Source: Bacteroidia bacterium (GTDB taxonomy: Bacteria; Bacteroidota; Bacteroidia; CAIKAF01). Taken from it: 64,000 bases of DNA. The position numbers and the translations under genes are program-made. The number at the start of each line of letters is the position of its first letter. Position 1 is the first letter of the stretch. Below the pieces are notes generated by a model, which searched no databases, had not been told where the DNA came from, and saw only the letters and a program-made list of their open reading frames with translations. Shown here piece after piece: positions 49,532 to 54,089 of the stretch. Location: contig JACVCJ010000012.1 in the NCBI GenBank assembly GCA_016742095.1, positions 37,470-101,469 on the forward strand, given 5' to 3'.

Positions 49532-50620
49532 ATGCACACTTCGGCCCCCAAAAGCAAAACAGGATCCCCCGCAGCGCAGGAGCACAAAGCTTCCCCCCAG
49601 CAGGGTATTACGGACAACCGTCCCGAAGGGCAGTGGCTGGCCGGCCTGTCAGGTACAGCGGCGGGGAGTGCACAGGTAACCCAGTTGCAGGCCTTTCAGC
49701 AGATGGCCGATGCCTATACACAGGCAAACACATACGTGCCCGGCCTTAAGAAGAAGGACGCCGGAGAAGGCGTGGTGCAGGGCGTATTTATATACTCGTA
49801 TGCGCACCAGGCCATACATGCGGCAAACAAAGATGCAGCCTATTACGAGGGCCTGGGTTTTGAATCCCATCTTTCGGCAGACGGGCATGAAGTATGGACC
49901 GATGCCCGGAATGTGCCGGAAGTATCTGTAAGCACAGTGGATGAAGATGCCTGGTGGCGGCAGTTTCACATTGCCCGCAATAAGTTGAAGGCCGGTATAG
50001 CTAATGCGCACGAGCATGAAATAAGGGATGAGAACGGCGGATTCACGTTTCGTAAAGGAGACGATGTCTGTAGTGAGGCTTTGATCATACAACCGAAAGG
50101 CCTGGGCAAAAACGGGCCCCTGTTTGCGTTCGGGAATATATTTTGCCTTACGGCAGCGACAGCTACCATGGAGAATCCCGGGATCATAACCGAAGTAAGT
50201 GAAGAAGATGCCAATGCGTACTGGGAAAGAGAAGTGGAAAAGGGTAAAGATGCAGAACCCGGTCAGGGAAGTTATAAAGAGTATACAAAGTTACCGGGTT
50301 CAAAGCCCGACGATCGCTTTAACTGTGCCGCCTATGCCCAGGGCGACGATACCGTGTGGATAGAACCGGAGACCATGCTGGAACAGCTGGGTAATACAGA
50401 CGATTACGACAAGCTGGAGAGCCATGCAGATATGGTAATTGATGTGAACTACATTGTGGCAAAGGCCAACCATTTCTGGCGCGCCAAAAAGACAGGTGCA
50501 GACCGTTACGAGATCAGCGAAAAGAACGGTCCCAGCGCCATCTATAAACGTACTATGAATGCCGAACAGTGGGCCGGGACTATGAATGAGGCTGTACTCG
50601 GCATTTACAGGAAGAGGTAG
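49532..50620 (+). CDS. Putative eCIS-type cargo protein with a Cys/His (papain-like) domain
   Basis: 362 aa, no signal peptide. The N-terminal 80 residues follow the low-complexity pattern I know from Bacteroidota extracellular contractile injection system (DUF4157-type) cargo: Ala/Lys/Gln-rich start, DNRPE (28-32), then QVTQLQAFQQMADAY (48-62) and VVQG near 80. There is no HExxH DUF4157 domain. The C-terminal part carries DDRFNCAAYAQGDD (Cys265), and later ANHFWRAKKTGADRYE (His314), a Cys...His order like papain-like DUF7689/NlpC-type folds. Function is inferred as a delivered toxin or hydrolase. No immunity gene or eCIS structural gene is adjacent. Confidence 0.6.
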   Translation: MHTSAPKSKTGSPAAQEHKASPQQGITDNRPEGQWLAGLSGTAAGSAQVTQLQAFQQMADAYTQANTYVPGLKKKDAGEGVVQGVFIYSYAHQAIHAANKDAAYYEGLGFESHLSADGHEVWTDARNVPEVSVSTVDEDAWWRQFHIARNKLKAGIANAHEHEIRDENGGFTFRKGDDVCSEALIIQPKGLGKNGPLFAFGNIFCLTAATATMENPGIITEVSEEDANAYWEREVEKGKDAEPGQGSYKEYTKLPGSKPDDRFNCAAYAQGDDTVWIEPETMLEQLGNTDDYDKLESHADMVIDVNYIVAKANHFWRAKKTGADRYEISEKNGPSAIYKRTMNAEQWAGTMNEAVLGIYRKR

Positions 50621-53036: not shown

Positions 53037-54089
53037 ATGAGAAAAACTTTCCCACATTCGTTCCCCCTCATCACATTGCTTTTCCTCCTGTTATACGGTT
53101 CGTCCTATGCCTGCACCCGCGTGGTGTACGACGGTAGCAACGGCCTGTACATCACAGCCCGCTCCATGGACTGGAAGGACGAGATATCCGCCAATATCTG
53201 GGTCTTTCCCCGCGGCATACAGCGCAGCGGCGAAACCGGTGCCAACTCCCTGAAATGGACCTCGCGCTATGGCAGCGTGATCGCCAGTGCCTGGGACATA
53301 GCCACAGCCGACGGCATGAACGAAAAAGGCCTGGTGGCCAATGTGCTCTGGCTGGCCGAATCGCAATACCCGAAGTTCGACCCCAAAGGCAAGAAAAAAG
53401 GCCTGGCTATTTCGCTCTGGGCACAGTATGTACTTGATAATTTTGCTACGGTAAAAGAGGCCGTCGAAGATTTCCGCAAGGATAAATTTACGGTCGTGTC
53501 CGACTTTATTCCCGGTACCGACCGTTTTACCACCCTGCACCTTTCGGTTTCCGATTCCACGGGTGATAATGCCATTTTTGAATACATCGGCGGTAAACTG
53601 GTTATCCATCACGATACAGCGTACAACGTCATGACCAATTCGCCCATCTTTGCCGATCAGCTGGCCCTGAACCGCTACTGGCAGTCGATCCCCGGAACCT
53701 CGGTACTGCCGGGCACCAACCGGGCTACCGACCGTTTTGTGCGGGCTTCGTATTACATCAGTGTCATCCCGAAAACGGACGATACCCGCGTAGCCGTAGC
53801 TTCGGTCTTCAGTGTGATCCGTAACTGCTCCGTGCCTTTCGGCATCTCTTCGGCGCAGGAACCGAATATTTCGTCCACGCGCTGGCGTTCTGTGTCCGAC
53901 CAGAAGAACCGTACCTATTATTTTGAAACGGTGCTTACGCCCAATGTGTTCTGGGTCGATCTTAAAAAGCTGGATTTCAAAGCCGGTGCGGCAGTACGTA
54001 AGCTGGACCTGGCCAATGATCAGACCTATTCCGGTGAAACATCAGTGCTGTTTAAAGATACACCCGCTTTTAAGTTCCTGGGTTTGTAA
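53037..54089 (+). CDS. Linear amide C-N hydrolase, choloylglycine hydrolase family
   Basis: 350-aa Ntn hydrolase with a signal peptide (MRKTFPHSFPLITLLFLLLYGSSYA) whose removal exposes Cys26 (ACTRVVYDG), the catalytic N-terminal nucleophile; so export and activation coincide. Further family features: RSMDWKDEISANIWVFPRG, DGMNEKGLVANVLWL, and NVMTNSPIFADQL (conserved Asn-x-Pro-x-F/D region). Bile-salt hydrolase, penicillin V acylase and N-acyl-homoserine-lactone acylase belong to this family; the substrate here is undetermined. Convergent with the ABC1 kinase gene (9-nt gap). Confidence 0.9.
   Translation: MRKTFPHSFPLITLLFLLLYGSSYACTRVVYDGSNGLYITARSMDWKDEISANIWVFPRGIQRSGETGANSLKWTSRYGSVIASAWDIATADGMNEKGLVANVLWLAESQYPKFDPKGKKKGLAISLWAQYVLDNFATVKEAVEDFRKDKFTVVSDFIPGTDRFTTLHLSVSDSTGDNAIFEYIGGKLVIHHDTAYNVMTNSPIFADQLALNRYWQSIPGTSVLPGTNRATDRFVRASYYISVIPKTDDTRVAVASVFSVIRNCSVPFGISSAQEPNISSTRWRSVSDQKNRTYYFETVLTPNVFWVDLKKLDFKAGAAVRKLDLANDQTYSGETSVLFKDTPAFKFLGL

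Follow-up and report, generated by a model that had tools for sequence, protein, structure and literature searches.

We analyzed a 64,000 nucleotide stretch of contig JACVCJ010000012.1 of a Bacteroidia bacterium (assembly GCA_016742095.1, positions 37,470 to 101,469 of the forward strand; hereafter the window), in which an open reading frame (ORF) of 362 amino acids (aa) with an ATG start, at 49532..50620, probably encodes a cargo of an extracellular contractile injection system (eCIS). The ORF and its parts lie on the plus strand and are numbered within the window. The protein is composed of a leader, an exchanged middle segment and a C-terminal Cys/His domain, and it is without an eCIS_core domain (PF13699), for which Pfam gave no match even at E 1. 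The leader (residues 1-62; 49532..49717) comprises a hydrophilic N-terminus, the motif DNRPE (residues 28-32; 49613..49627, as read from the translation), two helices predicted at residues 32-44 and 47-64, a region of low confidence in the model, and a second conserved part, QVTQLQAFQQMA (residues 48-59; 49673..49708). It is followed by VVQG (residues 81-84, of which VVQ is 81-83; 49772..49783), a motif at the boundary of leader and effector which may be a processing site, and by residues 88-153 (49793..49990), a segment of two types among the relatives. The C-terminal domain (residues 249-362; 50276..50617) resembles DUF7689 around its Cys motif and is predicted to be papain-like, with Cys265 of NCAAYA (residues 264-269; Cys codon 50324..50326) as the predicted nucleophile and His314 of NHFW (residues 313-316; His codon 50471..50473) as the predicted catalytic His. 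Direct reading of the translation found the ORF and all of its motifs where the initial annotation had placed them, and inspection of the sequence agrees with the claimed absence of a signal peptide, the first 30 residues being hydrophilic without any hydrophobic stretch.

The ORF is a real gene, since seven relatives were found with 42-81% identity to the window protein over 88-100% of the length. The family thus counts 8 proteins, including that of the window, from 5.8 billion searched, and a profile search added no further members; the relative P0008 (named as "Bacteroidota bacterium") has the same layout as the window protein. No relatives were present in the collections of contigs, viral contigs and phages, NCBIfam gave no match for the ORF and Rfam none in the window. 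A PDB sequence match to HypE at E 0.058 was rejected, and the profile gave no PDB match. A leader-like pattern, which was defined post hoc with the leader already known, is seen a single time in the six-frame translation of the window and in none of 50 codon-shuffled windows.

The assembly containing the window (3.73 Mb, 98.6% complete) carries an eCIS structural cluster on a different contig, C58. In a row this cluster encodes a sheath protein (PF17482, E 1e-10), two gp19 tube proteins, CIS_tube (E 1e-43), a hub/spike protein, PAAR, gp25, a 1233-aa baseplate protein (Baseplate_J at E 5e-4, under its cut-off), a protein of 1063 aa that had no clear match, CIS_TMP (E 4e-111) and an AAA ATPase (E 3e-29), after which an eCIS_core gene lies on the opposite strand. 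The genome has eight eCIS_core (DUF4157) matches on six contigs, none of them on the contig of the window (C62); cluster and matches together rule out a genome without eCIS. The ORF is therefore not adjacent to the eCIS operon, an adjacency that is common and not universal. A GH18 family protein (E 7e-27; L004 7240-9081) lies a short way before the operon on C58. Some of the eCIS_core proteins occur in tandem pairs, L008/L012 on contig C47, with 46% identity over 310 aa, and L011/L015 on contig C9. Protein L015 (1339-2490), for which eCIS_core is the sole Pfam name, has a Cys...His C-terminal part (TNCHGY ... HFLIG) which on visual inspection resembles a small papain-type domain, and the effector part of the eCIS_core protein on contig C67 (L010), which has no leader, is like that of a leader-bearing eCIS_core protein of genome G317 (L035; 41% over 383 aa).

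The leader of the window protein is homologous to that of eCIS_core proteins. When residues 23-86 were searched against their own genome, the only other place found was the N-terminal end of an eCIS_core protein encoded on contig C56 (E 0.003), and the profile of the eight family members found the leader of this same protein at E 7e-7, which makes the likeness more than chance. Against 395 genomes of the class the eight-row profile matched in seven genomes, and all of its matches except the ORF itself fall in profile positions 1-118, i.e., in the leader and its edge. A leader search with a single protein returned two proteins, one of which was the query's own, and no leader of L032 was found in plasmids. 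A leader profile of 16 rows (A3) was built from the matches of the eight-row profile, P0010 and three family members, and was searched at a threshold of E 0.01, with scoring limited in some genomes to 15 candidates from a first look. This profile matched 15 of the 395 class genomes (47 rows), which span 10 families.

CIS_tube, which is absent from 14 control genomes, was used as the marker of an eCIS. It is present in 44 of the class genomes, and all 15 genomes with an A3 match are among them (15/44 versus 0/351 of the others; Fisher 4e-16). When the seven genomes that had served to build the profile are excluded, A3 still matches 8/37 genomes with CIS_tube versus 0/351 (Fisher 3e-9), all eight matched genomes having CIS_tube; these p-values are too good because some genomes share families and relatedness was left uncorrected. 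The matches in three of the 15 genomes (G123, G279, G332) are weak (E 0.003-0.008) and the ORFs concerned carry eCIS_core. As eCIS_core itself marks eCIS, the ORFs without it weigh most in this comparison: by manual count, core-less leader ORFs among 30 loci occur in 10 genomes, all with CIS_tube, and four of these genomes lie outside profile building. In a sample of 197 genomes of the phylum A3 matched five, four of which belong to the 36 with CIS_tube (Fisher 0.004); two of the four had also been part of the class sample and two are new, G529 and G464, the latter from another class. The fifth genome, G451, speaks on its face against a leader confined to eCIS genomes, having no CIS_tube match; its A3 match is internal to a lipoprotein and not N-terminal, looks like chance and was rejected as a leader. 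The eCIS delivery route put forward in the initial annotation is thereby supported on three counts: an eCIS cluster is present, the leader can be aligned with the leader of the C56 eCIS_core protein, and matches to it in the class sample are restricted to genomes with CIS_tube; loading itself is predicted.

Comparison of the leader ORFs with one another showed that the leader is not dependent on a core in cis. The 30 loci, taken from the 47 A3 rows, gave 29 distinct leader ORFs, some of which are clipped by the end of the locus. When scored with a local profile built from six of the genome's eight cores, 14 of these have a full eCIS_core, two a remnant and 13, including the ORF of the window, none; Pfam likewise gave no PF13699 match in the core-less ORFs scanned. 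The leader thus persists without the core or with remnants of it. Among six cargos of G464 and G529 no core match was found in the five scanned, and the sixth, L075, was judged core-less by eye. Three leader cargos (L037, L056, L079) have partial eCIS_core remnants and are possible intermediates in core loss; in L079 both ends of the core can be seen by eye and the HExxH middle is missing. The same effector domains are found in core-bearing and core-less proteins, as in the pairs L029/L046 (45% over 213 aa, E 1e-60) and L033/L048 (31% over 245 aa, E 6e-25) and in a weak third pair, L036/L041 (38% over 47 aa, E 3e-4). In two genomes a core-less leader ORF is found next to an eCIS operon, whose tube genes were placed by CIS_tube search and whose remaining genes were recognised by eye: in G286 (L073 4089-5627) it directly adjoins the operon on the opposite strand, and in G347 (L074 15363-16091) it is one gene away. 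By manual count, 11 of the 47 leader rows, spread over seven of the 15 genomes, share a contig with a tube gene and are no more than 30 kb from it. Taken together, the confinement of matches to eCIS genomes in the class sample, the core-less ORFs, the operon adjacency and the effector domains with and without the core indicate that the leader by itself, recognisable by sequence, likely marks eCIS cargo. Directly after the core-less leader ORF of G286 there is a 182-aa ORF (L073 3537-4082) for a possible immunity or helper protein, and in G464 two core-less leader cargos, L078 and L075, have Cys...His motifs by eye (NDCLGY...H and GTCVEH...H).

The boundary between leader and effector is marked by a short motif, VVQG in the window protein and VIQG in P0008. 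The pattern [VI]Q[RLGMK] was found within residues 51-141 in 15 of 16 core-less cargos, compared with 2.9 expected by shuffling (none of 2000 shuffles reached 15), and in the next stretch in 0/14; it should be noted that the pattern was set after looking, that some early matches fall inside the leader helix and that two of the 16 cargos, those of the window and P0008, are relatives. Among cargos found later, a set that does not include L075, four of five have the motif (shuffle mean 0.8; 7/5000 shuffles reach four). In core-bearing proteins it follows the core in 11 of 16, a count made without a shuffle control and from which L037 was omitted because the end of its core was not found. The simplest reading of this motif is that it may be a cut site.

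Downstream of the boundary the family is divided by a segment of two types. Between the proteins P0003 and P0006, identity amounts to 99% in the leader part (86/87) and 98% in the C-terminal part (115/117), but only to 36% (24/66) in alignment columns 95-160, which correspond to residues 88-153 of the window protein. The first type is present in the window protein, P0002, P0003 and P0004 and the second in P0005-P0007, with P0008 nearer to the first. This segment looks like a swapped, mosaic cassette within the cargo gene, and its exchange would fit a region whose interaction partner varies.

The C-terminal domain is likely a DUF7689-like cysteine hydrolase, as judged from its sequence. The window protein scores 21.4 bits against DUF7689 (PF24738), just under the curated cut-off of 22.6; each of the eight family members gives a match at an E-value of up to 1, with the window protein scoring best, and a 97-aa piece of a relative from Calothrix reaches 23.2 bits. 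Both DUF7689 and the window protein have the motif NCxAxA...W..P containing the Cys, and in both the Cys precedes the His, whereas the DUF7689 matches L067, L069 and L071 cover about 135-141 aa and, unlike the window protein, have no leader. In an hhalign comparison of the window family with DUF7689 the Cys motif only was aligned (29-30 columns), the half with His and SKLG being unaligned, and the DUF7689 rows were dropped from the new model because MAFFT misaligned the His. Cys205, Cys265 and His314 show no variation across the eight-row alignment, and the order of the latter two is that of papain-like cysteine hydrolases. The Calothrix relative of the domain, which is encoded on a plasmid and is the only plasmid relative found, keeps both the Cys and the His at 36% identity. 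In this relative (L072 5040-5345) a stop is found just before the Cys motif and the annotated start after it, and it may be a remnant.

That the domain is not papain-like, its Cys and His being structural, metal-binding or engaged in other chemistry, is an alternative that overlaps with the other readings and that we regard as unlikely. In its favor, the AlphaFold model of the window protein has a mean predicted local distance difference test (pLDDT) score of 61 and falls below 50 at residues 231-285, i.e., it is poor around Cys265; neither Foldseek nor a second fold comparison gave a significant match for the model; and DUF7689, besides being scored under its cut-off, is itself a domain of unknown function. 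These points are weighed against the invariance of Cys265 and His314 in eight proteins and their retention in the cyanobacterial Calothrix relative, and against the fold search, in which the best of the weak matches were mostly C39, Josephin and CHAP-type peptidases, which we take to be papain-like. The papain-like domain of the initial annotation is consistent with the DUF7689 score and with the leaning of the weak fold matches, but the score lies under the cut-off and the model is poor around Cys265. Sliding clamps, Sm proteins and TnsB, which lie outside the papain-like folds, also appeared among the Foldseek and VIA rows and were judged to be chance matches.

The published work on eCIS cargos, here available in part, provides the context for these findings. 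DUF4157 has been described as an eCIS core domain, often ahead of toxins (PMC8213781), and the AlgoCIS cargos Cgo1 and Cgo2, which fill the tube, have a disordered N-terminus and DUF4157 in common (PMC8894135). The window protein is like these two in its N-terminus, where residues 1-48, 50-52 and 54-82 have a pLDDT below 50 in the AlphaFold model, in its C-terminal effector and in the presence of eCIS genes in the genome, and its leader recurs in an eCIS_core protein encoded in its own genome; unlike these cargos it has no eCIS_core domain. Danov et al. detected no specific conserved signal sequence and suggested that DUF4157 may act in cis or in trans (PMC11297309), while Evans and Waterfield found homology to be rare among signal peptides, which could yet be grouped, the disordered ones being almost confined to PVC and Afp loci (PMC11495950). 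The Parabacteroides cargo BDI_2459, reported to have DUF4157 without a disordered N-terminus, counts against a universal N-terminal signal (PMC12210884). The PVC and Afp signal peptides of 50-70 aa and our leader are both N-terminal, hydrophilic and disordered, or of low confidence in the model; however, the former are reported with rare homology or no conserved sequence (PMC11495950, PMC11297309), whereas the leader was picked up by its profile in 10 families within the class and in a single genome belonging to a different class. In the literature on eCIS cargos, leaders and cut sites that was searched (mainly open-access papers, preprints excluded, in part as excerpts) this leader is not described. 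The same search did not find DUF7689 named, and to this extent the initial annotation was right in calling the domain not yet tied to the eCIS route; it was not right for Cys/His domains as such, since EAT14 has been published with DUF4157 and a transglutaminase-like Cys-His-Asp domain (PMC11297309). EAT14 and the window protein are both associated with eCIS and have a Cys/His active site, a predicted one in the window protein; they differ in the domain itself, in the DUF4157 of EAT14 and in its toxicity, which has been shown.

Our preferred explanation, to which we give a probability of about 0.72, is that the ORF encodes a cargo of the eCIS of its own genome, that the leader is its predicted loading address and that the last domain is a predicted papain-like cysteine hydrolase. 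As to its kind, that of a core-less eCIS cargo with a leader conserved in sequence, the assignment is well supported; loading, cutting, fold, catalysis and target are what we infer from it. In such a scheme the loading machinery, of which the AAA ATPase encoded in the eCIS cluster is one candidate component, would recognise the leader; the cargo would be fed into the tube and, upon contraction, delivered to a target cell. A cut at VVQ, perhaps by eCIS_core peptidases whose genes lie at other places in the genome, may free the effector from the leader, after which Cys265 and His314 would hydrolyse or modify a target molecule. Residues 88-153 may determine which target is chosen or help to evade the target's defence.

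A rather improbable alternative keeps the ORF as a cargo and takes the leader to be some other part of the eCIS_core architecture, such as a chaperone-binding stretch or an inhibitory propeptide, with the real signal in the disordered first 20-30 residues or in the folded cargo. It would agree with the published eCIS signals, described in the available text as N-terminal, hydrophilic and disordered (PMC11297309, PMC11495950), and with the presence of the leader in only one of the eight eCIS_core matches of the genome, but not with the 15 of 29 leader ORFs in which the core is absent or a remnant. That the ORF is an orphan, a stranded cargo gene which is no longer delivered and has no injection function, is very unlikely: its lack of linkage to the eCIS cluster and the rarity of its family would fit, but the reading frame is intact, the leader, boundary motif and Cys/His are kept at 42-81% identity, and in two other genomes (G127 and G055) leader rows are likewise found on contigs other than that of the tube gene.

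Beyond the single cargo, we propose tentatively, and with slightly less than even confidence, that the eCISs of Bacteroidota use a transferable conserved address, from DNRPE to QLQAFQ, which loads effectors with or without eCIS_core; that eCIS_core peptidases, acting in cis or in trans, cut at a [VI]Q-[R/L/G] site between address and effector; and that there is an overlooked class of core-less effectors, including a new DUF7689-like family of cysteine enzymes with an exchangeable middle segment. Such a class may have escaped notice because surveys rely on DUF4157 and on proximity to the operon. The published signals by which an eCIS chooses its cargo are said, in the texts available, to share little or no sequence. 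A leader which can be found by profile, which in our samples stands at the front of proteins in eCIS genomes only and which is carried by core-less effectors away from the operon as well would permit a genome-wide listing of hidden cargos, and it provides a defined stretch for a loading test. The findings also bear on the role of eCIS_core, because the same effector domains are found both joined to the core and free of it, and because remnants of the core are seen.

In the window the ORF is flanked by genes for a KAP NTPase and a 23S_rRNA_IVP protein. Further along, at 53037-54089, the window encodes a choloylglycine hydrolase family protein (PF02275, E 5e-49) whose N-terminus contains a hydrophobic stretch.
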